Assembly (NCBI GenBank): GCA_964036195.1
Contig: OZ038458.1
Coordinates: 18,117,832-18,181,831, forward strand
Reading direction: 5' to 3'
Length of the DNA: 64,000 bases
From: Sphaerolaimus hirsutus
Lineage: Eukaryota; Nematoda; Chromadorea; Monhysterida; Sphaerolaimidae
Shown: positions 16,106-54,744 of the stretch, piece after piece
Position numbering within the stretch: position 1 is the stretch's first letter
Layout of the letters: each line of letters opens with the position of its first letter
Notes under the pieces: generated by a model
Database searches by the model: none
What the model was told of the DNA's origin: nothing
The model's input: the letters and a program-made list of their open reading frames with translations, nothing else
Translations under genes and position numbers: made by a program

Positions 16106-19100
16106 TCACTCAGCATTAGTCTCAGCGAGCGTCAACAAATCCAAACACACATCGCACACTCTAACCGGTTTATTCAGTCCATACTTCACAATGGGCGTGT
16201 GCTTATCAGAACAGCGACTGCACAAAAGCCTGCCGCAGTGTCTGCAGTGGTGCTTGCGCATGGTCAACGAGAAACGAGTCGTGCATTCGGAGCACTGGGG
16301 GGCAATAACAGAGCCTGTAAAATGAAATGTAAAATGTCATGTAAAGTGTCAAAAGTCATGTCAAATGCCCTGGAAAATGGCAAACGTACGTTTGCCATTT
16401 TCCAGGGCATTCTACATGACTTTTGACACTTTACACGACATTTCACACTTTACATGGCATTTTACAGGCTCCGAAATCGCCACCTGGTCGCCGTCGGCCC
16501 AGGGCGGCTCGCGCTGCAACGAGTCGAGCAGCCGGAACAGGAGCTGCTTGGTGGGCGTGTGCTGCTTGAAGATGTTCACGCCGTGCAGATTCGTCGCGCC
16601 CAAGCACGCGCCCAGACGCACCGCAGCGCGGCACAGCGACGCCCGCCCGTTCATGTACGCCGATAGGAGCACTGCGAAGGGAGAATTGTTTGTGGTGAAG
16701 CGGTGTTCGTTCGTGAAGTAAAAGTACCAGGGTGCTTTCAAAATACTTCAATTGGAAAGATGGCTAATGACCGCAGGATCTCCAAAACGTTTGTTTTTGT
16801 GTTTTTCTAATTTCAAGTACCGCATTTCCTCGAATTACGCCACCTGAAAAATTTGCAGGTGAAATAACAAACCGCCTGGGGCTATTTCGAGGAAATATGG
16901 TAGACGAATTTTCGCGGTGCCGATTTACTCACGCGTATTGCCTTCAACGTCGGGCTTGTCGAGCGGGAAGTCTGGGCAAGCCTCGATCACCAGCTGCAAA
17001 ATGGCCGGCGCCGCGTCTTTGTCGCTCACCGCCAGCAGATGCACCGCTGTTTGACCCCTGAGAAGGAAATGTCATTTGAATTGAATTTTTTTTGCAATAG
17101 TTGTGAGTTTACTTAATTGAAGTTCAAACTCGACCCAGGGCGCACACCCAAACCCTGTAAAGTTACCTGTAAAATGTGAAATGTCATGGAAAATGCCCTG
17201 TAAAATGGCAACCTTTGCCGTTTTCCAATGCATTTTACATAACTTTTAACATTTCGCATGACATTTCACAGGATCCTAACTGGCACCACGCCAACCCACT
17301 TAAAATCCACACCATCCACATCCAGCTGTGGCGCCTCAGCCAGCAGCACCTTGACGCACTGCAGACTAGCCACCAGGCAGGCGGCGTGCAGCGGCGTCTG
17401 CAGCGACGCGTCCTTTGCCGACGCGTCGCCGCCGTGCTCCAACAGCACCGAGGCCAGCGTCGACTGGTCGCCCGAGCACGCCACGTGCAGCGGCGTCACC
17501 CGCTGCCGACTGCGCGATATCGCCGACGAGTCCGCGCCTGCCAGCAGCTGCGAGTGGTGGGTTTTGTGATGGAGCGATGTGACCGTGCGCGCTAGTTGAC
17601 AAAGACACCAAAAGTCAACTCGTGTCCATCCCAATTCAAAGCTTGCTCACGAGTGTCGCTGCACATACCGCTATATTTTGAATACTGCAGCTTCATTGGC
17701 AACACGATTAAACACTTTTGCATTCGAACGAAGTTCGTCGGCTCGCCAGCAAGCTTGAGTTAAATTCGGCCGTTAGAACTGGGATCGGAACCAGTTGACA
17801 TTTGGTGCCGTGTCAACTAATGTGGGTAAGGCCAAAGTGACCACGCACACTAGTTTATTGCCGAAATATCAGTCTAAAAATGAACCTAAATATAAATATG
17901 TTTCTAACACGTTTGAGTTTACCAGAATGAAGCAGTTTCGATCTCCGTCAACAGTAGTTGACGAACTTCTTAATCCGGTAAGCTCAAATGCGTCCAATGT
18001 TGATTTATATGTTTCCGTAATTATGGGCGTAAACTAATGCGCGGGGGGAGCAATATGAAACGTGCCGTATTCGATAATTTCCACTGTAGTTTTCGATTTT
18101 GGTGAAGTAAAAATACTTAACCCGAGTGCTAGACGGATGCAATCGTTAGTTTATCCGTTCGAAACGCTTGCTGTAATTTAGATGGACAAAAATCACAAAA
18201 GTCACAATTAGGGTTGGCCGATGTTTTTTTAAACGTTTTTTATTTTTAAAAACGTTGTTTTTTTAAACATGACGTCCGAAATGTTTTTTTTTTAAAACAT
18301 CGGCCGAAATTTTTAGTATTAAGCACTAGGTATTTTGCAAAATTTTTGCGCGCAAGCGCGCAATTTCACACACAAATTGGCATTGGTGGTTGTTTTGATT
18401 GGTTTTGTGGCATTTTTAGTATCAAAGTATCCATTTCTATGTGCTACCATGGGTTAATAAGCCGTCATATGTTGCTGTAGTATATAATATTGAGGTAATG
18501 TGCTTCCATGTACCTCCACAGTGTAACTTCACTCTCAAAGTAACAACCTCCCTTAATAACCTTGTTTAATCACCATTCCGTGCCAAACTTTACCTGAAGT
18601 CACGAACATTCGACTATAAGGCGATATACGAACGATATGTTGACGAAAAATGGATATTTTTGACACAAATCACCACTTATAATGCTATCCCATGGCTCCG
18701 CAGACATTATATGGTCATATATAACATCACAGAGTATTGCCACTGTCTGATTTACATATATACCGTATATCCTTGAATAAGACCCCAGGGGCGTTATTAT
18801 TTCGTCAGAGGTTTTGGGGGGGGGGGGTTATTCAAGGGGGGGGGAGTTATTTTTTCCTCAGAACTTCCAGGATAACTTTCACTTTATTCATTGTTTGTAT
18901 GCATTCCGTCAACACATCTAATGCAGAAAATGACCAGTTCAACAAGAACAAAAACAACGTATCCCGGGTAGGGTTCAAACGGGATTGACTTTTCGGGATC
19001 GGGATCGGGATCGGGATTCACTTTTTGAGATTTCGGGATCGGGATCGGGATCGGGATTGGGGTTTCGGGATCGGGATCGGGATCGGGACTGGTAAATCCC

Positions 19101-22100
19101 GGAATTTCACGGGATCCGGGATCGGGATCGGGATCCCGTTTGAACCCTAATCCCGGGCGTAGGCTAACATTCTTTTGTATTTTTCGTTTCACACACCAAA
19201 CCCCATTTGCATTCGATGAATCAGCCCAGACATAGCTTTATTTTTCTGTTTGTCTCGTTTGTTTTCGTGTGTTGCTCATCGATCGTTTTACATAGAGGGG
19301 GGACTTATTCAAGAGGGGGGAGTTATTCAAGGGGGGGCGTTATTTTTTCCTCACCTGGCCAACAGGGGGGTGTTATTCAAGGGGGGGGTGTTATTCAAGG
19401 GGGGTCTTATTCAAGGATATACGGTATGTTGACACACGGTCATATCTGGGAGCTTTAAAAAAAAACGTTTTTTATAATAAAAAAAACGTTTAAAAAACAA
19501 CAACATCGAGTTAAAAAAGAAACCCTAGTCACAATAGTCGAATCCAAAGGACCAACCCCCAGTCGACCAACCAAATTCCTTGCAATCAACTCGTGCCCGT
19601 GCTGCGCGGCGAAATGCAGCGGCGTGTAGCCCAAATCATCGGCGGCGGCGGCGTTCACGTCCACGCCCACGGACAAGAGGAAGAGCACCGATTCAAGGTC
19701 GCCGGTGGCCACCGCCTTGTGCAGCAGGTTCACGCCGCGGCCGTCCAACTGAAGGAGGGGGGGTGATGATGATGGCATTGTGAGTGTGTGTGTAAGTTTG
19801 CTTAGTGAGCTAATTGGTTTGTTGAAATGATCCAGAAATGTTTGAACCTTCATCAGCTGTTCTTGCAAATTAGTAATTTTAAGCACATCCTTCCACCACG
19901 AATAACTTCTACTTATCGGTCAAAACGAGGCTACCCGAAAAAAGTGTTGACAATTCAGAGCCCACACACTAGTTGACATCAAACTTAGTTTCAACAAAAT
20001 AAACTTAATTATGTCACTTAAACTTTCCTATGTGGATAGGTAATTTTGATAATAGTGAGTGGTAAGGAGCGGTAATAGTGAGTGGAGCATAGGTAATTTT
20101 TTACAGTAACACTTAATTTTCATCGTTTCTGTAAAGTGCGATGCTCAAAAAATTTCTTCTGCGTTATTTAGTTGGCATTCAGTTGACACGAATTTGCAAT
20201 GTCAACTAGTGTGTGGGCACTCATCCTAGGGTTCAAACGGGACCGCGGTCCCGGTACATGGTTCGGCAAAAAGTCGGGACTGGGGCGGTCCCGGTCCCGA
20301 CACCCCAGTCCCGGTCCCGGTCCCGGTCCCGACAATTCAGAAAAGCCAGTCCCGGTCCCGGTCCCGGTCCGGACCACCCAGTCCCGGTCCCGGAATTTTG
20401 AAGTGGTCCCGACAAGGGATGAAGAAACACGTATTTTTATGACCTTTTCAAAAAATTTGCCAGAAATGGCACTTTTCTAAAGATTATGTAGGCACATCTA
20501 AAAACAATTTGCGCACGAGTGCGCAAATACCCACCCAATGATTACATGTATTTTTCTGTAATATAACAGCGTTAGAAAGGTCCCCAACATGATTCTAGTA
20601 CGAAATATTTATAGGTATAAAAAAATACCTAGACCTAGTAGACATTGGCGCCAATACTGCCATGGCGTTGGCGCCTACAAATGGCTCTATTTCTTAACTA
20701 TAGGGCCAAAATTTGGGGGGGGGGGCATTACTTGAATAATGTTATAAGAAAAGGCTAATAAATTGAGCGTGGTCCTTCACACAGTGGAGGTGTGTGGAAC
20801 AACATTAGCTGGATATTACGTACCAACAAGGTTCAAACAAGACCGCGGTGCTGGTACATGGTTCGGCAAATCCTAGTCCTGGTCCCGACCCCTCAGTCCC
20901 GGTCCCGATCCCGGTCCCGACAATTGAAAAAAGCCAGTCCCGGTCCCGGACCCGGTCCCGACGACAGTGTAGCATTCCGCAAAAAAGCTCATTCCGCATT
21001 TTTGCCCATCCCGCAAATTATGTGACCCATCCCGCAAGTTGCATCACCTGTTTGCGGAATGGGCACATTTGCGGGATGGGTCACATAATTTGCGGGATGG
21101 GCAAAAATGCGGAATGGGCTTTTTTGCGGAATGGGCCCTTGCCGTCCCGACCCCCCAGTCCCGGTCCCGGTCCTGACATAAGAAAATTTCTGGTCCCGGC
21201 CCCGGTCCGAAAAACTGGTCCCGTTTGAACCCTAACTCATCCCCCACCCCAAAACACCCAAACAACCTGACTAGCCACCCTGTGGTCCTTCTCAATGAGC
21301 ATCTTGGCCGCTTTGTGGTTGTTCACACCCATGGCGGCGGCGAGCGCCGACCTGCCCGCCAAGTCTACCGTGGACAGAGACACGAGCGGCGACTGCAGCA
21401 GCGCGGCCAGGATGTCGTCCTGGTGGTTGGTCACCGCCTCGTGCACCGGCGTGCGCCCGTGGATGTCCTGCGGTGCGGAGAGAGTGGGTTGGCGAGATTA
21501 TGGCGCCACACACGCTGCATGTCAACTGAATTTTAGTGAATCATGTGATTTAAATTTTCCTATGCGATAGAGCATAGTTGATTTTACACGATGACACTTA
21601 ATTTTCATTGTTTCTGTTAAGTGTGGTGTTTTAATCTTTAAAATTTAATAATTTTTTTGTGTCATCTAGTTGACTTTGAGTGAGACGGATTTAGTTGACA
21701 CGAATTTCCGATGTCAACTAGCGCACGTGGGCCCTATAACTAGGGTGCTCTTCACCCAACACAGTGTTGTACGCGTTTTCGCTATTCGATTTGTCAAGAT
21801 TTAAAAATTGCATTTCACTCAGCCCAAACTCCACAGAACCGTCAACCCACTAAAACGCACCTGCGCATTGACATTGGCGCCGCGCGCCAGCAACGCATCG
21901 ACAGTACCGCCCTGTCCCCACGCGGCGGCCATGTGCAGCGGCGTCTGGCGGTCGCGCGCCAACTCCGCCGTGCTGCCGGACGTCGCCGTAGCTGCGTGCG
22001 GCCGCCGCGTCGCGTCCAGCGAGCAGCCGCTGCGGGAATGTCGAGTTGGGCTAGTACTGGCTGTTATTGAGAAGAACTGCATGTCAACGCATTTTCGATG

Positions 22101-25100: not shown

Positions 25101-28100
25101 GGTTTAAGGACGTTGTCCAGGTGAGGGACCCGACCCGACTCTTTGACCCGACTTGAAATTTTGCACGAGTCAAGCTCGAACTCATGAGTTTCGAGCCCGG
25201 TGACGTGGCAAATCAACTGTTAATGTTCAGTCAAATTGTAAATGCCAAAAATTATGAACAACATTTTGCAAAAGGGCTGAGTACAGGCAACATTTTTAAA
25301 AAATTAAAAAAACATCAACATCGAACAAACCATAAAATCATTTGTCGCCAGGGCCAACTTAAGCGGGGTGCCGCCGTCAAAATCAACCCGATTTACTTCC
25401 AATTGAACTCTACAATTTTCCGTCACGTCCAACAAATTATTCGCAGATTCCACTGGCTGAGACCCAGCCAAACAGCAGTGAAGGCAGTTGCGCCCTGAAA
25501 AAGTTTTTATATGCGAAAAGAAGCTCTATATCAGATGTTCAATAAAATGCCCAACCCAATCACTGACCAGCAACTGAAAATAGTCCAAATGTCTCATCAA
25601 AAGGATCGTTCGCATTTTCAACGGTCGATGTGGTGACTGCATTTGGATCGGCGCCAGCAGTTACCATTTTTTCAATCACCGGTTTTTCCACACCAGTTGC
25701 ACACGCTTTGTGCAAGGGGGTGACGCCCTAAAATCGATATTCAGTAATTACACCAAAAACTAGAAACACACACAATCGACAGAAAATTAACGAACATGAG
25801 CATCTGCAGCTTTAACATCCGCCCGGTTTTCCAGTAAAAATTCAACCATTGTGATGTCAGCCACATAAACGTGCAAAAGAGTAGAATCTGATTTGAGAGA
25901 AAAAAATCTAAATTAAATAATCCGCCATCAAAATCAATTGTAAATCACACACCATCAGCATCCACAGTAACATTTATATCAGCACCCTTTTCAATCAGCC
26001 TTTTAGCCAGATGCAATTTCGTCGCAACATTTTGGCAGCCTGCCAATGCCACCGAAAGTGGCGTGTTAAAATCGTCGGACTGAATGTTGAGCGAAATGTC
26101 CTTGCAGCGGAGCAGCCGGTCTACAGCTGAATTGTTGCCGCACTGCAGAGCGATTTGAAGCGCACTCCTGAAATGAAAATGACAACAGTATAAATGATCG
26201 CAGGTTGCTGCATTGAAAAACCCATATACAACCATGGGGAGCAAAGGTCCATCCATATAAATCGCTATCACTATAAATTCCATTTGAACCCCAGGTAAAC
26301 GTCCCCACACGTATCTTGTACAAACCAATGATCAAGAAATTTGACCATTTTATAATTGTTCAATCATTACGTGTTGTAAATGCCTTCTCTTGTAAATAAA
26401 TTCAAGGGCTTATAGGCATCACTACGCGATTGCTTCTCACATCACTCAAAAAATAAACAACAAAACGACAACCAAACAACAAACCTTCCACTTTCATCTT
26501 GCAAATCCACAAATCCTTCTTGCGCACCATTCACCAAAAGTCCAACAATTTTGTCTCCATTATCACTGACTATAGCACAAGCAGCGTGCAGTGCCGTTCC
26601 GCCCCTGTGCGAATTGGTCACGCCGAAAGCGCGGTCGGCGCCGTTTTCCAACAGAAATCGACACGCCAGGGGATCCTCTGAGGGGACGAAATGGGAGTGT
26701 GCGAAATGGGTGTATTTTATAAACAAACTGGTTGCCAAAAAGAACTCAGAGAACCGCTACACGTCTTTTATATATTTTCGCGATCCCAAAAATCGCCAGA
26801 AACGAACTGGATGTCCATTGGACACAACTGGGTTCAAATGGGAATCACTTTTAGATTTTGAGATTGGGTACGGGGGTAGCTAATGGGGGGGGGGTGTAAA
26901 AGTTACCCACCCACAAACGCTCTAACTACCTAACTATCACAAACCCGAGCGAACTATCGCTCAGCTATCTATCGATGTCTATCTCGAGTCGACGATAAGA
27001 TTCGAGGTGCGCATGAGGTCAAAATCCTGGCAAAAACTGATTGGGTAACATTCAAAATATTCGATCCGTCATTTTAAGAAACAGTCGTTGCATCGTTAGT
27101 GAATGCAGCGATAGAAGTTGAATATTCGACATTATTTCAATGTTTTCGATGACTAAATGTTTCGATATTAAATAGATAGACCACAGTAAACTCCGAAAAA
27201 AACAAAACTCCCCCAAAAACTTCACACACCTTTCAAAACGGCATCCAAAAGCAGACATTTTCCATTCACCTCACAACTGTCCAAGTTGGCGCCGTGCGAC
27301 ACCAAACTGCGCGCAATGGACATCGCCTCAGCTGTCTTTGCAGAATCCTGCCCATTTGCAGTAGATGTGCACCGGAGGGAGTGCAGGGCTATACCCAGGG
27401 GAAGGCGCCCATCTCCGTCCAGGGCGTTTACTGAGTGGGTGATTGTTACATAGTCGAGTAATAAAACACTCCGCAATGAAACCTACCGTATTCCATCTGA
27501 ATAAAAACCCACAATTTGTTTTAGTTTCTCATCACATTACATCGCTCTCCCATCGGCGGAATTTGGCGTGCAACTTTCCACGTGACTTTATTCATCAAAA
27601 TACGGTGACATTTTTTGTAAAGCGTTCAGTCCGAGGGGCATAACAGAATACGAGGATATTCAGAACGTAAGGCTGATTAGGATACCGTATTTGGTTTATA
27701 AAACGGCGCTATTTTACTTTGATCGGCGCCTGTCGGGTCTTTTAGATTTTATTACGACAATTTAAATGTTTTGTTTTCGCCACATATTTAAATATGGACT
27801 TTTTATCAATGTGGATTTTGTAGCAGCTGGTTTCTTCGCGATGCACTCCAAACCAGGGGTCTCGAATGGGGGGGGGTTGGGGGTAGGGTTCAAACGGGAC
27901 CAGTTTTTCGGACCGGGACCGGGACCGGGACCAGAAATTTTCTAATGTCGGACCGGGACCGGGACCGGGACTGGGGGGTCGGGACCGGGACCGGGACTGG
28001 CTTTTTTCAATTGTCGGGACCGGGACCGGGACCGGGACTGGGGGGTCCGGACCGGGACTGGGATTTTCCGAACCAGGTACCGGAACCGCGGTATGGTTTG

Positions 28101-31100
28101 AACCTTATTGGTATGTAATATTCAGCCAATGTTGTTCCACACACCTCCACTGTGTGTAGGACCACTCTCAATGTATAAGCCTTTTCTTATAACATTATTC
28201 AAGCAGTATTCCATTGCCATCTTCACTTGAAGTTGTGAATATTTGATGAAACGCGATGTACGCAGGATTTTTTTGGGAGGGGGGGCGGCGCCAGTTGTAG
28301 GTGCCAACGCCATGCAAGTATTGGCGCTGGCATTGGTGCCAACGTCTACAATATAGGTATCTTTATATACCTATATTTCGTACTAGAATCATGTTGGGGA
28401 CCTTTCTAACGCTGTCACTTTATGGAAAAATCCATAGTAATCATTGGCTGGGTATTTGCGCGCTGGCGCGCAAAATTTTTTTAGATGTTTCTACAAAATC
28501 GCATTAGAAAAGTGCCATTTCTGGCAAAAATTTTTTGAAAAATACGTTTTTTTTCATCCCTTGTCGGGACCGCTATAAAATTCCCGGACCGGGACCGGGA
28601 CCGGGACTGGGTGGTCGGGACCGGGACCGGGACTGGCTTTTTTTAATTGTCGGGACCGGGACCGGGACCGGGACTGGGGTGTCGGGACCGGGACCGGGAC
28701 CGCCCCAGTCCCGACTTTTTGCCGAACCATGTACCGGGACCGCGGTCCCGTTTGAACCCTAGTTGGGGGGGGGGGGGTTACCCCCCCCCAAACCGCCCAG
28801 CTATCTATCTATCCCGGAGGCCGCTCAGCTATCTATCTATCCCGGAGGCAAAATTTTGGGCTACTACCCCCTAAACCCCCCCCCCCAAATCGCCCAGCTA
28901 TCTACCTAACTGGTGCGATTTTTCAGAAACTATACCCCAATTTTTGCTCAAAATCGCTATTTTTCATACCTATATATAGATTTTCACCTCCAAAATCACT
29001 GGTTCATGCGTCTAACTAGGGTTCAAACGATATGACTTTTCGATATCGATATTCGATATTTTTTTCTGAAACTCGATATTCGATATCGATACGATATGGA
29101 ACCTCGATATCGATATTCGATATTGAAAAATGGTCGATATTCGATATTCGATATTTCGATATTTTCGATATTCGATATTGTGATATGCTTTTGGTATAAC
29201 AAGGCATATTTCAAGTGGCATATTGTATTTTCATGTGGTTGCACACATGTTTAATCATCTCTTTACTGAAATGTGAATGGTACAAGTGATTTTCACAAGC
29301 TTTACATCACTCAATGGTAGAAAATAGAAGAAAAACATTATGAATCAAAGTGTATCAGACAAAAAACAATTGGTAGATATTACAGTTCATCCTTATAACC
29401 TAATTGCTTAAGGGCATGTTGCAAAAAAGTATATCAGCGTTTTCTGGCTTCAAATTTAGCACTCCAACAACAATGACATTAAAAATACTGTACTTTTACT
29501 CATCAAATACAATACTATAAGCACATCAGATCAACCATAAACATCTCAAAATGAAAATGAAAAGTACATTTGGGGACACAATACAGGTTCGATATATCGA
29601 AAAAAAAATGGTCGATATTCGATATTTTTTCAAAATTTTCGATATCGATATTCGATATTTTTTCAAAATTTTCGATATCGATATTCGATATCAAAAAATG
29701 GTCGATATCCGATATTCGACACTCGATACGATATATCGTTTGAACCCTAGGTCTAACTGCCTATTTTCAGCTATTTTAAGTACTATATGCTCTTGTATAC
29801 CCATTTTGAGCTATTTTACACCTACTTTTAGTGTTTTTACTCCCTTTTCTTCCTTCTATGCCCCGAAAACACCTATATATCGAACCACCACAACCCCCCC
29901 CAGAAAATTTTTCAGCTATCTATCCCTCCGGAGGAGCGATTTGCTATCTATCCAACCACTCGGAGGGTCAAAATTCAAGATACCCCTGCTCCAAACTAAC
30001 ACACTTTCCATTTTTCATTCTTCCCATCGGAACAATCAACAAATTAAAATCACACTTACATAGACCCCCAACCAACCAGAATCAGCCACAGTGCCATCAT
30101 CGCCCCCGCATTCAATCAAACACAAGAAAAGTACATCCTCGCGCCCTAATCGCACGGCGGCGTGCAGCGCGGGTCGGCCTTCGACGGCTGCGGCGGCACG
30201 ACGCAGCATTTTGTAGAGTGCAGTCGCTGGCAGACCGTTGAAGTCCGCGCTGCTGTAGTCTGTCCATCTGGGGGGGGGTAATTGAGGGTGAAGGTTGTAT
30301 TTGAAATTTGATTTAGGTTGTTGTTATAATCTGGACTGGGAGTACGGTACGGTAAAGGGTCAATTTGTCGGTAGACGGTAGGGTAATGCAACTTTTTTTT
30401 CCGAATTTTCGGTTTGGTATGGTAGGGTGAATTCTGCGGCTAGGGCCCATTCCGCATCAAAGCCCATTCCGCATGTAGACCCATTATAGACACATTATGC
30501 CTGCAGGGGTAAGAAAGGGGGGTGGGTATAGGGTTCAAACGGGATCCCGATCCCGATCCCGGATCCGGTGAAATTCCGGGATTTAGCAGTCCCGATCCCG
30601 ACCCCGAAACTTTTCAAATCCTGATCCCGATCCCGAGAAACTCCAAAGTCCGGGATCCCGATCCCGGAAAAATTACTGGAAATTATCAAAAGTGAAAGAA
30701 CATCGTTTTTGCATGCAAAAATGTGAACGCAAACCCCCACCGTTCATTTTATGCCAAGTTTCTGGCATCCAACAGTGTTTTTAGACCTTTATGAACAACT
30801 GTGGATGCCAAAACATAGGCAAAAATCTCTATCCCAAGACCCCAATCCCGAAAAAATGCCAATCCCGATCCCGATCCCGTGACCCCAATCCCGGCCAATC
30901 CCGATCCCGAAATCTCAAAAAACCAATCCCGATCCCGAAAAGTCAATCCCGTTTGAACCCTAGGTGGGTAACACCACCCTAAACCGCCCAGCTATCTATC
31001 TATCCCTGGCGCAATTTTTAGGCTACATTCCTCTGAATACGCCCCCCACCCGCAAATTGCCTAGCTATCTCGCCATCTGGAGCGCTTTTGAGCAATTTTA

Positions 31101-34320: not shown

Positions 34321-34348
34321 CAGCTAAAGTAAACTCGATAGCTCCACC

Positions 34349-34540
34349 TAGGGTTCAAACGGGATCGCGATCCCGTATCCTGTGAAATTCTGGGATTGAG
34401 CAGTCCCGATCCCGAAACCCCAATCCCGAAACCCCAATCCCGATCCCGAAATCCAAAAATACCAATCCTGATCCAGAAACCTTTCAAATCCCGATCCCAA
34501 GAATCTCCCAAGTCCAGGATCCCGGAAAAAATAGTGGGAA
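34349..34540. mobile_element. TAGGGTTCAAACG element, GGGATC type, truncated copy
   Basis: The left terminus and CCCGAT repeats match the copy starting at 34827, including the flank CTCGATAGCTCCACC. The right end is missing. The shared flank shows that this is part of a local duplication, not an independent insertion. Confidence 0.7.
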
Positions 34541-34826
34541 TGATACAGTTGGGCAAAAACCAAACAAACGGCTGGCCGTGGCAAACAGACACGACAGAGC
34601 AGTTTGGTTGATTGTCGTCCTTAGCGGGCGGGGCTGGCGGACCCCATCTGGGGGCACTCACAGACCCTGTAAAATGCCATGAAAAATGTCAAGCACGCTT
34701 TGTGGTGAGACTAGTGATGGAATGGCGCCATCGACGCTTGGCGCCCTTTTCCTGTGGCGCCTGGCGCCCACTTTCTGAAAGGCGCCATGGCGAAACATTT
34801 TTGTCTATAAACTCGATAGCTCCACC

Positions 34827-35234
34827 TAGGGTTCAAACGGGATCGCGATCCCGTATCCTGTGAAATTCTGGGATTGAGCAGTCCCGATCCCGAAATCCAA
34901 AAAAAACAATCCTGATCCAGAAAACTTTCAAATCCCGATCCCGAGAATCTCCCAAGTCCGGGATCCCGGAAAAAATAGTGGGAATTATAAAAGATGGAAG
35001 CAAATGACAGTTTTGCGTGCAAAAATGTCAACGCAAACGCCCAGCGTGAATGAACAGTGACAGTGACAAACAGTGAGGAAAATCTCTATCCCTAGACCGC
35101 AATCCCGATCCCGTGACCCCAATCCCGATCCCGAAATCTCAAAATACCAATCCCGATCCCGATACCGAAACCACAATCACGATCCCGAAATCGTGAAAAG
35201 TGAATCCCGATCCCGAAACGTCAATCCCGTTTGA
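34827..35234. mobile_element. TAGGGTTCAAACG element, GGGATC type
   Basis: The left terminus follows GCTCCACC. The right end reads CCCGTTTGAACCACC, consistent with a small deletion that removed CCTAGCTC from an original right end plus 8-bp duplication. CCCGAT repeats flank a unique centre of about 120 bases. Confidence 0.7.
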
Positions 35235-35240
35235 ACCACC

Positions 35241-35600
35241 TAGGGTCGGCCGATGTTTGTTTTTATAAACGTTTTTTTTAAAAAACAACGTTTTATTTAT
35301 TAAAAAAAATGACGTCCGAATGACGTTTTTAAAAAAACATTGGCCAAAATTTTTAGTACTAAGCACTAGGTATTTTGCAAAATTTTTGCACGCAAGCGCG
35401 CAATTTCACACACAAATTGACATTGGTGGTTGTTTTCATTGGTTTTGTGGCATTTTTAGTATCAAAGTATTCATTTCTATGTGCTACCATGGGTTAATAA
35501 GCCGTCATATGTTGCTGTAGTATGTAATATTGAGGTAATGTGCTTCCATGTACCTCCAGAGTGTGTAAATTCACTCCCAAAGTACCCACCATTTTTGGTG
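35241..35600. mobile_element. TAGGGTTGGCCGATG-family hAT-like element, partial
   Basis: The left terminus TAGGGTCGGCCGATG, ACGTTTTTTTTAAAAAAC repeats and the following CGCGCAATTTCACACACAAA match the complete copy at 18209-19527. The right end is lost in a local duplication (about 35551-35715 repeated at 35999-36166). Confidence 0.65.
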
Positions 35601-35802
35601 ACTGGTCAGAAAGATAACACCGTTCATGCTGTAAACGACATCGAAAAACGTGGACGAACTCGAAAAACATTTTTACGCATAAATCTTGAAACATAATTTC
35701 CACGGGTAAGCAAATCGATGATGATGACAATTTTGATTGAATGAAGTGTGAAAATCGTATGAAACTTCTGAAAATATGCATTCAAATGGTTATCGATCCC
35801 GA

Positions 35803-35998
35803 TAGGGCTCAAAAAGGGGGCTGTGGTCCTGGTACCTGCTTCGGCAAATCCTGGTCCCGGTCCGGATGCCCCAGTCCCGGTCCCGGTCCCGACAATTGAA
35901 AAATGCCAGTCCCGGTCCCGACCACCAAGTCCCGGTCCCGATAAGAAAAATTTCTGGTCCCGGTCCCGGTCCGAAAAACTGGTCCCGTTTGAACCCTA
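35803..35998. mobile_element. TAGGGTTCAAACG element, GGGACC type, short
   Basis: Its termini are TAGGGCTCAAAAAGG (eroded) and CCCGTTTGAACCCTA around GGTCCC repeats. The flanks do not form a direct repeat. Its right flank repeats a segment from 35551, so a rearrangement probably removed the original left flank. Confidence 0.7.
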
Positions 35999-38218
35999 CT
36001 TCCATGTACCTCCAGAGTGTGTAAATTCACTCCCAAAGTACCCACCGTTTTTGGTGACTGGTCAGAAAGATAACACCGTTCATGCTGTAAACGACTTCAA
36101 AAAACGTGGACGAACTCGAAAAACATTTTTACGCATAAATCTTGAAACATAATTTCCACGGGTAAGCAAATTTTGAATTACCTTGAAATACCGCCAGGGG
36201 GTTTATTTTTTCAGAGTGAGAATTTTGAGGGGGGGTTAAACGTTGTCTATACACCAAATTTGGGGGGGGGGTATTTCGAGGGGGGGGGGGGTTATAAGTT
36301 CATAGTGACCATTTTGTGGCGGGTCAGTATTTACCGTAATTTGTCAAGTAAAGTGCAAAGATGATATAAAGTTTATGTGTATTGTCATAAAATGTTCGGA
36401 CTAGTGATGGAAAAGCGCCATAAAAAATGGATGGAGTGATATAGATGAAGCTATATACCGTATTACCTCGAATTAACCCCCCCCCCCTCGAAATACCCCC
36501 CTAAAATTTGGCTGGAAATAAATCCACATCTCAGCAAAAACAGGTGTTTGGGGATTTTTGGGTACATTTTGGGATGGACCACACGGTAGTTGACATCGAC
36601 AGCAAATGTCAACTGATTCCATCGGAATCCATCATTACCCGCAAAGGTAACGTTTCAATGAGCCATTGCTTACAGCCAATAAGTTTCTCTTACGTGATAC
36701 TTTATGTATATATGAATATTTATTTATTTATTATATATTTTTTTATTTCGCCACTCAAAAGGTATCATTTGGAGGGGGTTTTCCATTGGAAGACCCCTAA
36801 AAAAACCCATGCATACCGGCGAAATGAAACGTGGTGATGGTGATGGCAGTGGTGATTGTGATGTCGGTGTGTTGCGTTGTGGATTATGCTGCATTTGAAA
36901 TTTAATTGTGTTTATAAACTGTTTACCTTCCTATCACCCCCATGCAATTTTGGGGTCAGTGTAACTCCCACAATTCCTAAATACACCCCCCATCTTTTGA
37001 AATTCATAGAACATTGAAATCCACAGCCGCAGCCTAACCCGCAATTTATAAGTTTCAATAGCCCTACTGTAATACAGTCAAATACCAGCGATTGCGGCAC
37101 ACAACTTGGCGCCCACCAAATTGTTACCAAAATACAGGAGTTGTCACCATGGCGCAACTCGTACCAGCCTGGTATGAGATGAGCCATGGGGACCACGCCG
37201 GGTTTTTTGAGTTCCTCCAGGCGGGGAGGGACGGTAATCAAACTATTTGGAGGGACTTATTTGACAAACGATTGAAACCTATATATTGCGGGTTCGCTGG
37301 TTCCAGTCCCTCCTTGCATTAGACGAAAATGCGGGTATGGCTTTGAACACACAAACCCAGAAATCATTCAACACATGAATGCAACCCACATTTTTCATGT
37401 TTCAAGTACACACTGTAGACACCTTGTACGATTTCTTGCGTACAGCAAAACACCTTGTGTACAAATACGCATGTATTTACATGAAAATATTAAAGCGAAT
37501 ATTTATTTGAAACGCACTGTAGTTAAACAGTGTGTCATTACGGTTCAAAGTGGGTTCAAAGTGGTTGGAGGGGGTATTGGAAAACCCCTATGAAAGTATT
37601 TGACGGAATCGTCGACAATCTGCATCAACGGTACATAGAAAGCAAGGAGGTGTAAAAACCCGTGAACATATAAATGGCGGGTTTCAACTACTTATTATTT
37701 CCTTTTTGCAACATGATGACATGATGACATCATGGATAAAGAATGTCCTTGTTGAAAATGAAGCATTCCACAGAAACGCCACAACAGAGTAATTCACTGT
37801 TGGAACACAATGACAACGGTTTCCATATTGTGTACTAGCTACTAGTGATGGAATGGCGCCATGGCGCTGGCGCCATTAAAGGTTGTCTATACACCAAATT
37901 TGGGGGGGGGGTATTTCGAGGGGGGGTATAAGTTCATAGTGTCCATTTTGAGGCGGGTCAGTATTATCCATAATTTGTCAAGTAAAGTGCAAAGATGATA
38001 TAAAGTTTATGTGTATTGTCATAAAATGTTCGGACTAGTGATGGAAAAGCGCCAGAAAGAATGGATGGAGTGATATAGATGAAGCTATATACCGCATTAC
38101 TCTGAATTAAACCCCCCCCCCCCTCGAAATACCCGTTTTTACCCACGCGTTACAAGGTAAACACTTTCACATTGATCCAATTCACTGTTGAAACATTTTC
38201 TAAACGGGTTTGAAATAC

Positions 38219-38270
38219 GCTGTGGCGCAGTGTGTTTGTCGTGTTGCTGGTTCGAATCCCATCTCATAGG
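38219..38270 (+). repeat. tRNA-like SINE head, single
   Basis: The A-box-like TGGCGCAGTGTG and B-box-like GGTTCGAATCC lie at tRNA-like spacing. This copy has no inverted partner to its left, unlike the others in the array. Confidence 0.5.
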
Positions 38271-43133: not shown

Positions 43134-43371
43134 GTCGCCTGGCTTCGAACCAGCAACACGAAAACCACACTGCGCCACAGCGTATTTCAAACCCGTTTTG
43201 GAATTGTTTCAACGCTGAATCGGATCAATTTTGATCCGTTTTTACCCGCGCGTTACAAGGTAAACACTTTCACATTGATCCAATTCACTGTTGAAACATT
43301 TTCTAAACGGGTTTGAAATACGCTGTGGCGCAGTGTGTTTGTCGTGTTGCTGGTTCGAATCCCATCTCATA
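43134..43371. repeat. head-to-head tRNA-like SINE pair 5
   Basis: Same arrangement: minus copy 43134-43180 and plus copy 43322-43371; it repeats pair 3 at an offset of 2091 bases. Confidence 0.55.
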
Positions 43372-46964: not shown

Positions 46965-47213
46965 TTTACTTTAATTAACAACAATTCAAACGGTCTTGAA
47001 AGTTGAAACACGTCCACAAAAATGATGCAAATGTCAACAAAAGTAACACGTGAAATTATAAAAGGACAAATTCAGATGATCTATATCTATTCCATAATAA
47101 ATTTACAATTTTAATTAATCTAAAATTTCATACATGTGATACAATTGCACCTTCTATAATTTCACCGTAATCATTCCAAAATTTTTTTGGACAAAAATTT
47201 TTTGCCTTTCAGA

Positions 47214-49465
47214 TCAGTCAACATGTGGGGCCGCAACAATCAGGGCCAACTGGTGGCTTCCAATTTTCACCAAATGGACTTGCACGCTGCTGTCATACTG
47301 CTCTTCATCATCCTGGGTGGTGTCATGCTCAATCAACAGATAAACGATTTCGTGGCCCACCTTCACCACGGGAACGAGCCTACGCGGGGGCGGCTTAATA
47401 AATATAGAAACTATTTTATTCAGTTTTCAAAGTGTGGGGGGTACTTTTTCTACATGGCTGATTGACATGACTGTCAATTGTTTACGAAGGCCACTTGCCG
47501 TGTTTCAAGAGGGGGGGGTTCCAGCGCGGGGGCTTCAACCGGGGGGGGGGGGGTTCTTTTTCTAGATGGCTGACTGACATGACTGTCAGTTGTTTTCGAT
47601 AGCCGCTTGCCGTGTTTCAAGGGGAGTGGGGGGTTGATTTAAGTTGTCAAGTACTGATAAATTGTACTTATTAACTAACGTTGCTATACCCAATTGGAGA
47701 TACTGTATGCCCAAATCACCGACCAAAATGTCCTCGTGGGGCGGGCCGTCCAAAACAAACATGGCGCATGGCGCGGCCGCGGTGAACTCGGTGGCAATAG
47801 GGGTGAAGAGCAACCCCGGGTAACACAAACGCATTCTAAGCCTTTGTCCGCCAATACGAACGTGCACTTCGTCAGTTGTCGCCATTTTCTGTGAAAAGCA
47901 CTGGAAACTGCGAGAGCTGATAGTAAACCGAGAAGACTAACAAAATGAGAAATAGGCTAAATAAATATGTGGGTATCAGTGACCGTATGTTGTTACATAC
48001 ATAAATACATAAAATATAAAATTACAAAATAACTTTGTTTTCTTTTATTTTATACAACAACCACAAAGGACACAATGCATAGACGAAAATCACACACAAA
48101 ATGACACTTGGTGAAAAAATAACTCGAACACACTAGAAAATACTTTTTAAAAAGAGGGTGTACCTGTGCTCATTTTTGCCCGGTGCTCATCGCACGATGA
48201 GCACCGGGCAGGGTGCGTCCATGCAATGTAATGTAAATATGAGGGCACGATGAGCACCGAGCAAAAATGAGCACCGGGCACCGCACGATGAGCACCGGGC
48301 AAACATGAGCATGGCGTAACTTTTAACTGTTAAACTTTTAGGAAGCACTTTTAAAAAGGTTTTTAACAACGTTGCACATAGAAACGTTGAAAAAAACCAA
48401 CAACATAATCTGACGAGGAAACACAAAACATCATGTCAAGCAGGGACGTAGCCAAGATTTTTGAGCAGATTGTATACGTAAATCTTTCGGAGGCACAATT
48501 TCTGGCACATTTTTTGGTCAGACCCGGGATGGGGGGGGTGGGGCGGCCGCCCCCCCTGGCTACGTCCTTGATGTCAAGTCAAGACTATGTGACACTCAAA
48601 GAGACTGTCAAGACTATGTGACACTATAAAACTCATTGTCAAAATTGCAACATTCCTAAAAAATCCCAAATTTCATGCAGTTTTAAACAAATTTTTCAAA
48701 CAACAAAAACACAAAACTCAAAACACAGAGCGTGCGCACATTATCACAAATGTATCCGACGTGATCAGGAACACCCGCACGCGCAGCGTGTCATCCACAT
48801 CAGGAAGATCGACTTCAGGTTCTTGGTTCTGTTGGGGATCAAATTCATCCCAGACTTCGCGCATGTAGCGCGCACGCACTCTGATCGGTTGGTTGTGCGC
48901 AGTACCAATCACTGCAGTTCTGCAAAGTAATATAAAAGTTCAGGACGAGATAGTACACAGCTTTCACAGCGGGCCTTTGCCTCTGTGCATTTTTACCCGC
49001 TGTGCATGGTTACCCGGCGTGCATTTTTGTATTGGCTAAGAGGAGGAGAGGGGAATTGAGCTTGAATTTTCTACTAAATCAGCAACTTGCTAATTAAGAC
49101 TAAATTAAAAATGGTTCTTTGACAATTTCAAACTTGACATCTGGATGTGCCATCTAGCTATGCCCACACATAATACCCCACAGAAAGCAGAAAAGTGCCA
49201 CCACTCACTGTTCGACAGCCTCGGTCAGTTCCAGGGTGACTGGCGGCCCATTCTCTACGAAAATTTCGCTGACGTATAGCCCGATCAACCCCTCATTGCC
49301 AGGAACTCCACGTGGATCGGGCTGCTGATAAAAGTTCGCGGTCATGTATTCGACTTCCACGAAAACCATACGGCGGTCGACTTCAAAGGCGCAGCTGCCG
49401 CGGGCGAGCGGCATCTCAAAAGTTACATGCAATTTCCGGGGTACACAAGCAATACATATGCTCAT
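47214..49465 (-). CDS. unrecognised protein-coding gene, 4 exons
   Basis: Minus-strand exons: 49465-49209, 48919-48748, 47888-47680, 47379-47214. Phases agree and give about 267 aa. The start is uncertain: ATG 49465 extends an open frame with protein-like sequence (RKLHVTFEMPLARGSCAF), while ATG 49414 is an alternative. Visible features are strand-like segments (RRMVFVEVEYMTANFYQQ; GLIGLYVSEIFVENGPPVTL), a very acidic stretch (DEFDPQQNQEPEVDLPDVDD), then EVHVRIGGQRLRMRLCYPG, DILVGDLGIQYLQLG and a charged C-terminus ending APHVD. I do not recognise the family. Even composition and clean splice phases argue that it is real. It lies on the same strand as the KMT5A-like and transposase-like genes. 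Confidence 0.6.
48165..48310. repeat. GATGAGCACCGGGCA repeat module in intron of unrecognised gene
   Basis: Direct and inverted iterations of GATGAGCACCGGGCAAAAAT occur within the third intron. The design resembles the subterminal repeats of the hAT-like elements, but no termini or target duplication were found. Confidence 0.5.
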
Positions 49466-49508
49466 ACGTTTACTCAATGTATACGCATGATAGAGTTCAG
49501 AGTAGGGA

Positions 49509-49625
49509 TGGCCAGTGCTTTTGTTCACGCGCTTTTTTTTCAAAAACGCCGCTTTTTTATAAAAAAAAGCGCAAGGGTCCCAGCGCTTTTTTTAAAAAAA
49601 GCAGTGGCCTGAAAAGTGCCTGGAA
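49509..49625. repeat. AAAAAAAGCGC simple-repeat element
   Basis: GGGATGGCCAGTGCTTTT on the left and the inverse AAAAAAAGCAGTGGCC on the right flank GCGCTTTTTTT / AAAAAAAGCGC iterations. It lies just upstream of the unrecognised gene. Confidence 0.5.
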
Positions 49626-50089
49626 GAGTGCCAAAGCCACGGCAAACTGCGAGAAACTGGGCTGAGCCGAAAGTTCACCAAAAACACAAAATAAAATTAA
49701 AATTAATAAGTAAATAAATCTATGGTTATCTAGTGTCTATGCCACCTTATGGTTGTTAAAATATTGTTTCATTTAAATTTCTATATCGATTAATTGTTTA
49801 TTTCAATTCATTTATTATTCACCGAACTGCGCCACAAAAAACTTCATAGCAAAACAACATGACAAAAGTACAGCTGGAAGTGAACAAACCACTTAAAAAA
49901 GAAAACACTTTTAAGAAAAAAACACTTGGAGAAAGGTTTATAAAACAACTTTAAAGAAAGTGCAAACCATGCACACAGCAACCGACCATAAAAAGAAATA
50001 TTCAATCAGAGCCGTATCCAGGATGGGGGGGGGGCTGCAGCCCCCCTTCCTGGGCAAGATGGAAACACACGGGATCACATTAACTTCAG

Positions 50090-50240
50090 GTGTATTCAGG
50101 GAGGGTGCACCCTGCACCCGAGGGTGCACTGTTTCGCACATACGCCTGTTTCGCACAAACGCCCGTTTTGCACATGGATGAAACCTGTTTCGCACAAACA
50201 CCCGTTTCGCACATAACTGATGTGTATGTGCGGAACAGGC
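50090..50240. repeat. TTTCGCACAAACGCC repeat module
   Basis: Five iterations of TTTCGCACAAACGCC-like sequence follow a GAGGGTGCAC end. Matching modules lie at 50745-50880 and 51270-51325. Confidence 0.5.
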
Positions 50241-50578
50241 TTTTTATCAGGCAAGGAATCGAAAACTTGACATTTCTTCAACAGTGTGAGGATCATTTTT
50301 AATGCAAAAATTTGTCATGCATGGAATTGAAGACATTTGAACCTTTTTCCATGAGAAATTTTTGCATGTGAAATATTTTTTTCATTAGATATCCGAATAT
50401 CATAAATGCAAATAATACATGTAATAAATTTTACTCGAATAATGATGTTTTTGGAAGTCATTTGAATGGTGAATTATTGCATAGGGGTGAATTATTTGAG
50501 TAAATAGGGTCAACGTAACAAATCAATGTCAGTAACAAAATTCTGTCGAAAAATTCACTTAACTTCCACTATAAAAAT

Positions 50579-53500
50579 TCAACTAAATTTCAATTTTCTC
50601 CTCGCAATACCACTGGCGGAGGCATTGGCAACATTTGCAGCATTGGTAGTCGAGGGAATTTCTTTATTCAGCAACGGTGTACGCTGAGAAAGTGAGTTAG
50701 AGTGTGCATACCGTATTACCTTGAAATACCCCCATTGGGGTTTATTATGAGGGTGCACTGTTTTGCACAAACGCCCGTTTCGCACATGGATGAAACCTGT
50801 TTTGCACAAACGCCTGTTTTGCACATAACTGATGCGTGTGCGAAACGGGCCTGTGTGCGGAACAGGCATATGTGCGTGTCACAGACTGGCGTGTGACTGT
50901 GCATCCACATTCCCCCCCTTCCCCGCAGCACAATGAGTTCCAGGCTGCCGGCTGTCTGAGTTTTCATTTTGCAAGGGATTTTCCATGAATTTTGACACTT
51001 TGCATGACATTTTACATTTTACATGGTCAAAAGTCATGGAAAATGCCCTGCAAAATGCCAACCGAGTTTCCATTTTGCAGGGCATTTACCATGACTTTTG
51101 ACACTTTGCATGAAATTTCACATTTTCCATGACTTTTGAGACTGAAACCCTGTCGCATTGCGTCATTCAAGATGTTGCATTGTCTGCGCATTATACAGCC
51201 AGCCAGTGCCGCCTGGAACCAATTGTGCTGGGGGGGGGGGGGGTAAAGTCATGGGGTGCCCAGTCACGACGCACACGCACATACGCCTCTTTAGCACATA
51301 CGCCTGTTCCGCACATCAAACCATTCTTTTGTGTTTACGTTGCATACGCTGCACTTTGAAACTTTGCCCAAAACTTTGAAAGAAACTAGTTCGAATTTTG
51401 AGAAATTTTGAAATTCTAATAGAAATGATGTACATGATGTATTTATTACTACTAATTTGCATTGCAGTTACACTTATACGCTCATTTGTGTACAGATGTA
51501 CACCTATAGCCAAAATATGACCTATTTCCTCACGTTTATTACTGATTTTGTGTATGAAAAAGCGTATTCTTTACTATGAATTTCACGAAAATTTCTGACG
51601 AAACAATAAACCCCCCTCGAATTAACCCCACCTCAACATTTGCTGGCGAAATAATAAACCCCCATGGGGGTATTTCGAGGTAATACGGTATTTTCTTTGC
51701 TTTGAGGGATGGGAATGTCCAATAATCAAAATAGTAGGATAAGTGTTGACTTTTATATTTTAAACGAACCAAACTATGCAATCAAATTGTGTATTCTATT
51801 TCGTACTGTTACTCATTCAACAAAATTTGTACTGTGCGAAAGGGGGAAATTTGAGGGGGGTTAATTCAAGGGGGTTAATTTGAGGGGGGTTAATTCAAGG
51901 GGGGTTAATTCAAGGGGGGTTAATTCTAAGGCGGAGTCAGGTACAAACAAGGAATATTTTATTGTCATGTTTTGCTTTTTTGCTGGAATTATTGTAATTT
52001 TTTTAATGATGACGTCATGATGGAGTGTTTCGTTAGTAAAATGCATAGCATGTGGTCCGTCGAGTATATGGTTCATGCAAAGTGAGATGTCGGAAAGATT
52101 AGAAAGACAAAAAGTGGAAAGGGAACCTCGTATGCTGGTGTATTGCGTTCTTTCGCACGTTTTTCCTCTGGTGACTTCAGTGACAATGGGGAGTTGTGGT
52201 TGGGGGGTTCTGGTGGAGGACCTGCTGAGAAGTCACTGGGCTCTGGCTGCTCAGAGCCAGGGGGCTCTGGTGGTGTAACTGCAAATAAAGTGTGTCAAAT
52301 TTTAGTCATTTTGTATCCATTTATGTATCTACAAAAATTTCTGGCGAAACAATAAACCCCCCTCGAATAAAACCCCTGATCTGCTGGCAAAATAATAAAC
52401 CTGGCGGTATTTCGAGGTAAAATGGTATGTGTCTTTTTATGAAAGGGAAATAAAAGTTACGAAAGTCAAAAAATTTGAAAACGTTTTTGAATTCTTATTT
52501 GCCAACTCTACACATACTTCATTCACCCATTTCCTTTTCATTTTAAACGCCATTTCCTCCAGAAATTTTACATGAAATTTGATCACCTAATTTTTGCAAT
52601 TATGCTGAAGAATCAGCTTTAACTTCATCTAAAAATAACAATTGTTTAAGTGAATTTTTTCTGAAAGTTTTTAAATAATAATTGTGGTGGCTGGAAAGCT
52701 TGGAACCAACAATTTTTGTCCCTGGGTTTCAGCCAAGGGTGTCCCTCCAGGCTGATGTAGCCATGGTCGCCGTAATCATATGCCAATTCCTCCATGGGAG
52801 CTATATCCCGCAGAGCCTTCAAAACCAGCCTGGGATTTCCATCCAAATTTAAAATGGCCATTTTCAAATTGGGCGGGAAAAATTTGTCTTTTTCATGCGA
52901 ATGGTTGATTCGGCGCGCAAAGTGATCAGGGTTCTCTTCGGTTGCATCGAGGCTGTGGAAAAATGAGTAAATAAGTAAATCACAGTCTGCATAGATAGAA
53001 AATAAACTCCCTCAGAATTCACACTCATAAAAAATAAACCCCCGGGGGGTATTTTGAGGAAATACCGTACATAATTCTTCTTATATATGGTGCTTATTGC
53101 TGCATTTTTCTACTTCTGCGTACTTTACAAACACCAAAATAGTACTGGGAGTTCAGGCAATATCTGTAAAAGTGATAAACCCCCCTCAAAGTACCCCCCT
53201 CAATTTAAGACATCCCCGCTCAAAATTTTCACTCTGAAAAAATAAAAGTAAACAATAAATATATAAATTTCCACGTGGGACTTCTATTTACAACAAACCT
53301 GCACCGTTTGTTCTGGAAAGTGAAATAATAAATGAAGTTGCTTGGGTTCTCCAGCAGTTCTTCATCACGCTTGCTGACATCCTTCCCCATCCTCAGGATG
53401 CCTTTATACTCTACCACATACTCTCCCCTCTTGATCGGCACCAGCGTTTTCACCCCCCTTCCTGTAAAATATTAGACTTACATTATTAGTAGCGTATGAG

Positions 53501-54744
53501 TACCGTATTTCCTCGAATTACCCCCTCAAACGATGTTCTAACGTAACACAGTAAGTGTTTTGAACGTCTGTTAGGCATTACATCCGAGAAATACCCTGAT
53601 AATTAGTTTGGAAACTGAATGTTTCCCACACTACAAGCGTATTTACCTGTTTTGACAGGTGTTTGACATTTTGAGTGTGGGAAATACATTTTTGTTGATT
53701 TAAGTCGGAAGCTTAACACTTCCCAAAAATGTAATCAGAGTTGACACATTTAAATACCAAAATGAAAAGTGACATCACATGTCACTTGCCCTATTTTACT
53801 TGATTTTCACTAATCCTAGTTGGCAAGTTCGAGCGATAATCAAATTTCCGAATTTATGAGCCGAATATATAATATTCGACTCCCAAAAATAGGCTTGAAA
53901 TTAATTAATTACCTAATCACAAAATCATAGTGCCCATTTTGAGGGGGGTATTTCAAGGAAATACGGTATGTGGAATCTGTGAAACTACCAGAAAAAGCAA
54001 CATGAGAGTTATTTTCGGTATGCCTTTTTTGTCTGGGAGTTATTTGAGTGAAATTATTTTGTCGTCAGAATATCAAGTTATTTTAGGGGTGTTTGAGGGG
54101 GGGCTTTTTTGAGGATATACTGTGTGTATGTAAGTATCCTTAAACGTGGAAATTTTGATGAAATAATACTATCACATCACTAGGGTTCAAACGGGACTGC
54201 AGTCCCGGTACATGGTTCGGCAAAAAGTCGGGACTGGGGCGGTCCCGGTCCCGGTCCCGGTCCCAGTCCTGACACCCCAGTCCCGGTCCTGACACCCCAG
54301 TCACGGTCCTGACACCCCAGTCCCGGTCCCGGTCCCGGTCCCGACAATTCAAAAAAGCCAGTCCCGGTCCCGGTCCCGGTCCGGACCCCCCAGTCCCGGT
54401 CCCGGTCCCGGTCCGAAAAACTGGTCCCGTTTGAACCCTACACATCACGCCTTGAATGACCTCCTCCTCACATTGCGATGACAAAAAATAAATGAAAAAA
54501 AATTGTGCATTTTTATAAAATTACATATGAAAAGCTGTAGGAAAACAATGGCCCTCCAAAACTTCAAATGCCAACCTTTCCAGTGATACTCTGAAAACTC
54601 CAAAAAGCGACCTTCCTCATTCTGAATAGCATCTACAATTTCTCTATCTTTATCTGCTTGTGATTGAACATGCCTCTTTGGTCTTGGCAAACTGGCAGCC
54701 TGTGCCGAGGTACTGCTAATGCTAGGTTGGTGAAAATCATCCAT
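50579..54744 (-). CDS. KMT5A: KMT5A-like (SET8/PR-Set7) histone methyltransferase, 5 exons
   Basis: Minus-strand exons: 54744-54576, 53461-53299, 52952-52711, 52278-52127, 50683-50579. Phases agree and give 276 aa (human KMT5A is 393). ATG 54744 is the first in the exon; the exon begins at an acceptor (54751), so an upstream exon is possible. The SET domain covers about residues 57-190: GRGVKTLVPIKRGEYVVEYK, then RRINHS (the NHS motif for S-adenosylmethionine binding), DGNPRLVLKALRDIAP, and ELAYDYGD with the YDYG catalytic tyrosine, then LEGHPWLKP. This order matches KMT5A, the H4K20 monomethylase. Odd: KMT5A normally ends a few residues after this point. Here two further exons add about 85 residues of Pro/Glu/Ser-rich, probably disordered tail (TPPEPPGSEQPEPSD onward) ending RRKLKFS. 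The N-terminal extension is short. Confidence 0.8.
50955..51150. mobile_element. TGTAAARTG-type MITE in KMT5A-like intron 4
   Basis: CATTTTGCAAGGGATTTTCC at the left and iterations of AAAAGTCATGGAAAATGCCC around a central inversion (GCAGGGCATTTACCATGAC) match the palindromic family. The outer termini are eroded. Confidence 0.55.
53505..54130. repeat. KMT5A-like intron 1: mariner-like MITE pair
   Basis: CCGTATTTCCTCGAATTA near 53503 and GGGTATTTCAAGGAAATACGG near 53946 could be the two ends of one element about 465 bases long. A further end, GGGGGGCTTTTTTGAGGATA, lies near 54097. Confidence 0.5.
54181..54440. mobile_element. TAGGGTTCAAACG hAT-like element, GGGACC type, 260 bp
   Basis: The termini TAGGGTTCAAACGGGAC...GTCCCGTTTGAACCCTA are flanked by an exact 8-bp duplication CACATCAC (54173-54180 and 54441-54448). 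The whole interior is GGTCCC-type hexamers with GACACCCCAGTC variants. It lies in the first intron of the KMT5A-like gene, far from the other copies. Confidence 0.85.

Follow-up and report, generated by a model that had tools for sequence, protein, structure and literature searches.

What are the hexamer arrays that recur in a 64,000-nucleotide stretch of the Sphaerolaimus hirsutus genome (contig OZ038458.1, positions 18,117,832 to 18,181,831; hereafter the window), and how do copies with the same ends come to carry different hexamers? A preliminary description of this DNA reported nine copies of a hAT-like element that share a 13-base terminus and enclose microsatellites. Our analysis indicates that the copies are very probably non-autonomous, Ac-like hAT elements with enlarged subterminal arrays, putative transposase-binding sites, whose unit (GGGACC in type A, GGGATC in type B, CGATAT in type C) has changed in concert on a conserved frame. 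The tip, TAGGGTTCAAACG, occurs 15 times exactly in the window, and the tips delimit six two-ended elements (e1 to e5 and e8) and two damaged ones (e6 and e7). The nine copies described earlier correspond to these eight elements plus a duplicated end of e6. Each element was oriented by the direction in which most of its units run, which defines a P end and an S end, as follows.

e1, 18969..19149, minus strand: GGGATC type (B), 181 bp; P end right; target duplication ATCCCGGG.
e2, 20227..21234, plus strand: GGGACC type (A), 1008 bp; P end left; target duplication ACTCATCC.
P-tip inverted unit pair of e2, 20239..20252, plus strand: GGGACC-GC-GGTCCC, bp 13-26 of the element.
e3, 27884..28761, minus strand: GGGACC type (A), 878 bp; P end right; target duplication GTTGGGGG.
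e4, 29017..29749, minus strand: CGATAT type (C), 733 bp; P end right; target duplication CGTCTAAC/GGTCTAAC; retains the 3' end of a hAT transposase exon.
e5, 30529..30962, plus strand: GGGATC type (B), 434 bp; P end left; target duplication GGTGGGTA.
e6, 34349..35236, plus strand: GGGATC type (B); two P ends (at 34349 and 34827) separated by filler; damaged right tip; without duplication.
e7, 35803..35998, plus strand: GGGACC type (A), 196 bp; left tip degenerate, right tip exact; without duplication.
e8, 54181..54440, plus strand: GGGACC type (A), 260 bp; P end left; target duplication CACATCAC.

The window elements are mobile, and they are hAT elements. Window matches to the tip with at most two mismatches number 18 against 1.86 expected, a count reached in none of 100 shuffles, and the inverted tips match over 17-18 bp in the six intact elements. 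The flanking 8-mers are identical (8/8) in e1, e2, e3, e5, and e8 and agree at 7/8 positions in e4, which bears out the six 8-bp duplications described earlier, five of them perfect. Random position pairs match at 8/8 with a frequency of 6.5e-5 and at 7/8 or better with a frequency of 8e-4. A blind scan of the window for [CT]AGGG..CCCT[AG] pairs with matching flanks recovered all six intact elements, while an offset control gave a mean of 0.05 perfect pairs. Some interiors are also related, contrary to the earlier view that they had nothing else in common: e2 and e3 align at 80% over 798 columns and e5 and e6b at 69% over 453 columns, and spacers are common to the subfamilies.

The preliminary description had proposed a genome search with the 13-base terminus. 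In the 348-Mb assembly of 762 contigs, this search returned 15,514 exact copies (7,752 + 7,762), against 8 (5 + 3) for a reversed-pattern control; 3,241 tips continue into ATAT and 2,505 into GGACY. Copies were then sampled from 40 stretches of contig C1 (248 kb) chosen around the first 84 of 100 listed tips, which is not a random sample. Seventy of the 84 exact tips pair into 41 elements and 14 are unpaired. The tabulation of duplications, likewise proposed earlier, gave 30 perfect pairs, 6 with one mismatch, 2 with two, and 3 with four to six; 36 of the 41 pairs thus have an 8-bp duplication with at most one mismatch. Pairing favored matching flanks, which were a requirement where a tip was inexact; among pairs in which both tips are exact, 24/29 have at most one duplication mismatch. 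Three sampled copies (L138, L149, and L158) are 98.7-99.7% identical over 621-627 bp and lie at different sites with different duplications. The terminal inverted repeats of hAT elements are short and start with C/TAGGG or similar, and their target consensus is nTnnnnAn. The copies studied here have the 8-bp duplication, short C/TAGGG-type inverted tips, and a T2/A7 target preference: in 35 perfect duplications read on both strands, T2 and A7 each reach 47%, with G1 and C8 equally enriched, so this is a preference only. Mobility and hAT membership, as first described, are upheld because duplications extend beyond the window, near-identical copies occupy different sites, and hAT exons lie inside tipped elements (see below).

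These data also bear on the idea that satellite DNA or ordinary microsatellites make up the repeats, next to tips that arose by chance or were captured. The arrays do score as tandem repeats, but unit pairs fall inside paired elements or at most 1.2 kb inward from an exact tip in 58/58 cases for GGGACC, 155/155 for GGGATC, 64/66 for GATATCGATAT, and 111/112 for GATATTCGATAT (in the 40 stretches, themselves chosen around tips). Window units likewise lie mostly within elements (65 GGGACC inside against 4 outside; 46 GGGATC inside against 8 outside), and the sampled copies have target duplications. We consider this explanation extremely improbable. Outside this genome, exact tip loci in viral (65) and genome (45) contigs of public collections look like chance, because 108 of the 110 lack any partner tip within 3 kb that has fewer than three mismatches, 2 were untestable, and no unit pair lay within 600 bp. 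The tip was not found in the open-access papers searched.

The organization of the arrays was studied in 47 elements (the 41 sampled and the six intact window elements), comprising 13 A, 22 B, and 12 C. Forty-two of them lack either other unit and four carry a single foreign unit; L156, which has B-type tips around 39 CGATAT and 13 GGGATC units and so resembles a B element with a C element inserted in it, was counted as C. Sampled elements of 100 and 105 bp bear perfect duplications, so the element middle is dispensable. The earlier proposal that only the termini are needed is not supported, as each of the 47 elements also holds at least four units. The units are strongly polar, with 781 antisense and 49 sense, and a sense unit stands at bp 13 in 28 elements. 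At the P end, two units stand inverted to one another at about bp 13-26 and those further in face the tip; units of the S end point inward. Palindromes of 10-18 bp occur in 8/9 window P tips (e7 is the exception) and extend over at most 4 bp at the 8 S tips. An ACTTTT-type spacer motif is found in 45/47 S ends and 0/47 P ends; the consensus S ends are TAGGGTTCAAACGGGACCAGTTTTTCGGACC (A), TAGGGTTCAAACGGGATTGACTTTTCGGGATC (B), and TAGGGTTCAAACGATATGACTTTTCGATATC (C), and the P ends start with the inverted units.

The spacers connect the three types. The first S spacer is AAAAGTCA in 22/23 B elements and 13 bp long, mostly GTCCGAAAAACTG, in 11/13 A elements. The spacer GAAAAGTCA, which adjoins the S tip, is identical in e1 and e5 (B) and e4 (C) with different units on either side of it. 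One spacer sequence is thus flanked by different units in different subfamilies, and the subfamilies therefore have a common frame within which the unit differs: the outer 12 bp and several spacers are constant while GGGACC, GGGATC, or CGATAT occupies both tips and the arrays throughout. Counting inward from the S tip, the window elements of types A and B have spacers of about 8 and 16-17 bp between their unit clusters, in a similar succession. Across the larger set, a spacer 2 of 16 bp is present in 16/23 B elements; among the 13 A elements its length is 16-17 bp in 4 and 22-23 bp in 5. Spacer 3 is 8 bp long in 11/23 B and 6/13 A elements. The lengths for the larger set come from a parser that merges variant units into spacers. 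The later spacers vary more than the near-fixed first one, and their regularity is below that suggested by the window.

In the model that follows from the preliminary description, the element would move regardless of what lies between its tips, and the hexamers of each copy would be microsatellites expanded independently out of the bases adjoining the tip. The agreement of tip-adjacent units with the array type, the different unit numbers among copies, and the 100- and 105-bp elements fit such a model. It does not account for a spacer motif confined to one end, for a first S spacer shared among nearly all B elements and a further spacer shared by B elements and e4, or for only three unit types covering 47 copies. 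We regard independent expansion as very unlikely; the one-ended motif, the polarity, and the common spacers point instead to subterminal repeats on a two-ended frame.

Such an arrangement is known from Hermes of the house fly, in which two BED domains bind a pair of subterminal repeats that lie inverted to each other at bp 11-27 of the left end; its left-end repeats STR2-STR7 are antisense, its right-end repeats STR1-STR5 are sense (taken here as read inward from each tip), and unlike ends are required for activity (PMC10368747). The P and S ends described here show the same unlike-end arrangement, with the difference that the Hermes repeats, AAG(T/C), are spread out (PMC10368747) and those of S. 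hirsutus form dense tandem clusters. By comparison, we infer that the hexamers are subterminal repeats bound by the N-terminal BED zinc-finger domain of the transposase. The transposase would be recruited by binding to the hexamer arrays, would pair the unlike P and S ends and cut, and would then insert the element with an 8-bp stagger.

Candidate sources of this transposase were sought with PF05699, the hAT dimerization region, which has 28 matches in the genome. The 1.2 kb downstream was examined at 12 of these. The stretches at two loci (L165 and L166) include the exact tip TAGGGTTCAAACG along with 15 and 23 CGATAT units; five (L159, L160, L163, L169, and L170) terminate in TAGGGTGTCAACA or a variant of it, and the remaining five have no TAGGGTTCAAACG with at most two mismatches in the 1.2 kb inspected at each. 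The preliminary description had suggested looking for an autonomous hAT with the same ends; in the two tipped CGATAT elements, the dimerization exons match PF05699 with E values of 2.7e-12 and 1.2e-11. The C2 copy is 995 bp long, with one mismatch in the left tip, arrays at both ends, and a single dimerization-region exon; it is flanked on both sides by GCACCTGA, with five extra bases at the left. The C6 copy is 3,188 bp long, contains two exon copies, and is flanked by GGCGCTTG/GGTGCTTG. Window element e4 aligns with the C2 copy at 73-80%, including the 3' end (last codons) of the exon. Exon remnants were detected in 9/12 C elements (tblastn E values of 7e-5 to 0.75, some of them weak), and the same nine were recovered by blastn of the flanking unique DNA. 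Type C copies that carry a partial hAT transposase exon are as expected of internal-deletion derivatives.

Related lineages show how tips and units combine. The dimerization exon of the CGATAT elements has 53 genome matches, eight of which were checked downstream. In four (L174, L176, L179, and L180, on C6, C15, C9, and C14; 56-66% identical), the units are CGATAT and the tip has become TAGGGTTGGGACG, TAGGGTTCGGACG, or TAGGGTTGGAACG; the remaining four are broken up by other DNA or have no such end within 621 bp. The CGATAT unit thus occurs on two different tips, and tip and unit can therefore change separately. Another combination is found at five transposase-bearing loci with TAGGGYGTCAA tips, which carry 5-13 AAACGG units, all in sense orientation from the tip and many 6 bp apart; their exon identity is 48-52% among the matches listed. 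AAACGG is the hexamer bound by the maize Ac transposase (PMC3260210). The A, B, and C arrays are built of other units, and subterminal AAACGG is present in this related family.

What changed the unit? In the reading that we prefer, the unit would have been replaced in concert at the tips and throughout the arrays, with the outer 12 bp and several spacers kept, and the likeliest cause would be a changed transposase specificity together with array homogenization. Unit type would then track transposase specificity, and a putative coevolution of units and transposase appears likely. A neutral course is the main alternative: the elements are the same hAT elements, but gene conversion, unequal exchange, or slippage homogenized a chance variant while the transposase specificity stayed as it was. 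GGGACC and GGGATC differ by one transition, the arrays are tandem and variable in length, the window B elements (e1, e5, and both e6 ends) each retain one GTCCC site, and the CGATAT arrays on two tips show that tip and unit are separable. Against it, the change extends to the inverted unit of the P tip and to the lone unit of the S tip, places that slippage within a direct array would not easily reach; AAACGG, a different unit, is carried by a transposase lineage with about 48-52% exon identity; and units are better conserved than non-unit sequence in 74/75 pairs, a measure biased by the definition of units as exact matches. Taken together, we judge neutral replacement rather unlikely. CpG decay as a cause of the unit change was set aside, as the altered base lies outside any CpG; the observed/expected CpG ratio is 1.13 in elements and 1.00 outside. 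A bolder form of the preferred reading is that one hAT lineage switched its binding site several times (AAACGG, CGATAT, GGGATC, and GGGACC), each time exchanging all copies of the unit within a fixed end architecture, so that families with common cut sites answer to different transposases. We put this forward tentatively, as possible though a little short of probable.

Several observations weigh against interpreting the copies as hAT elements whose units follow their transposase. In the window, e6 (2/8 flank match) and e7 (3/8) are without target duplication, as are 5/41 sampled pairs. Because elements were oriented by their majority unit direction, the one-way unit count is in part built in. 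Geometry may also explain part of the resemblance to Hermes, since a one-way array set between inverted tips would by itself have two units in inverted orientation at one of its ends. The hAT exon was unmatched in 13 A and 23 B elements by local tblastn, and no GGGACC- or GGGATC-type transposase was found, which leaves a dimerization region within a tipped element for the CGATAT type only. The transposase is known here from the C-terminal exon alone, in the CGATAT type and its sister, and the BED domain that would bind the units is putative.

Maize Ac/Ds is among the closest known systems. It likewise has short common terminal repeats, 8-bp duplications, subterminal hexamers, derivatives that keep transposase fragments, and non-autonomous copies that differ in size and filler; AAACGG, bound by the Ac transposase (PMC3260210), forms arrays in the related family of this genome. 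Three AAACGG copies are enough in maize (PMC3260210), whereas here dense arrays, present in thousands of copies, take up much of each element, and their unit is GGGACC, GGGATC, or CGATAT in subfamilies that have a single tip in common. DNA-binding domains of hAT proteins favor CGG, GCGC, or AT-rich motifs, and the motifs of four such proteins match their own subterminal regions (PMC8097297); in the available part of that study, which covers hAT-derived CGG-binding proteins, separate hAT families and host proteins are compared, not subfamilies sharing a tip. Herves of the mosquito has a short subterminal motif bound by its hAT transposase (PMC3143072), and Kat1 of Kluyveromyces has a short motif, repeated between its ends, that is thought to help cutting (PMC4763223), but the available excerpts of these two reports describe neither dense arrays nor alternative units. 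Tetris of Drosophila virilis is a DNA transposon also tied to tandem repeats and satellite DNA; in the excerpt available it is named a foldback transposon, not a hAT element (PMC4079207). The concerted change of the unit on a common frame is the unusual part, and no account of hAT subfamilies with a common tip and swapped units was found among the open-access papers searched.

The elements of the window may also record later rearrangement. Both e2 (at about 20829) and e3 contain a degenerate second P end, and each may have arisen by fusion of two elements that then moved together; a relationship of their middles to element D1 was considered and dropped, as the pieces are not colinear. In e6 (34330-35240), the P end and 19 bp of left flank are doubled with about 280 bp between the copies, a pattern that resembles faulty repair of a break. 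On either side of e7 lies a copy of a 173-bp stretch (35543-35715 and 35999-36171; 98% identity), the second of which begins exactly at the e7 right tip. Across twelve window elements, among them D1, E1, F1, and G1, the longest open frames span 59-156 codons. Three further window elements whose 8-bp duplications are perfect came from the blind scan for hAT ends, where 0.05 would be expected by the control, and a relaxed scan (any 7-bp inverted tip with an 8-bp duplication) added a fourth.

hAT-like element, 5432-6501: CAGGGTTGG tips; duplication GACTTGAC; AT-rich arrays near both ends; nested inverted repeat inside.
hAT-like element, 18209-19527: TAGGGTT tips; AAACGTT units; duplication GTCACAAT; e1 nested inside.
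hAT-like element, 27854-29988: CAGGGGT tips; CAGCTATCTATC units; duplication CTCCAAAC; e3 and e4 nested inside.
Element from the relaxed scan, 62984-63795: TAGTGATGGAA tips; 23 GGCGCC units in 812 bp; duplication GACGAAAC.

The relaxed scan gave 15 matches against a control mean of 11.25 (maximum, 60) and is no evidence alone; the tips, arrays, and duplication of 62984-63795 are mutually consistent. Within the outer 200 bp of these four elements, tandem repeats cover 28-89% on the left and 0-62% on the right, compared with 4.8% outside elements; the one without cover on the right is 27854-29988. A second copy of the 18209-19527 element starts at 35241, beside e6, and an element similar to 27854-29988 interrupts a transposase exon in L177. 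Elements e1 and e2 sit between minus-strand open frames with Pfam ankyrin repeats, which are apparently exons of one gene, and e3, e4, and e5 lie further upstream, between frames judged by eye to be exons of the ankyrin gene. A satellite with a period of 354 bp (12.8 copies) occupies 55003-59610, and an open frame at 61074-61565 encodes an ISXO2/IS1595-like transposase domain (E value, 7.5e-9).

For annotation, these hexamer repeats should be masked as hAT elements and not as microsatellites. With this system, one can study how a transposase changes along with the many sites it binds, whether families are insulated from each other's enzyme by their units, and how transposons seed simple repeats in introns. 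If the binding site was indeed switched several times within one lineage, this genome would hold, in thousands of copies, a natural record of an enzyme and its binding sites changing together.

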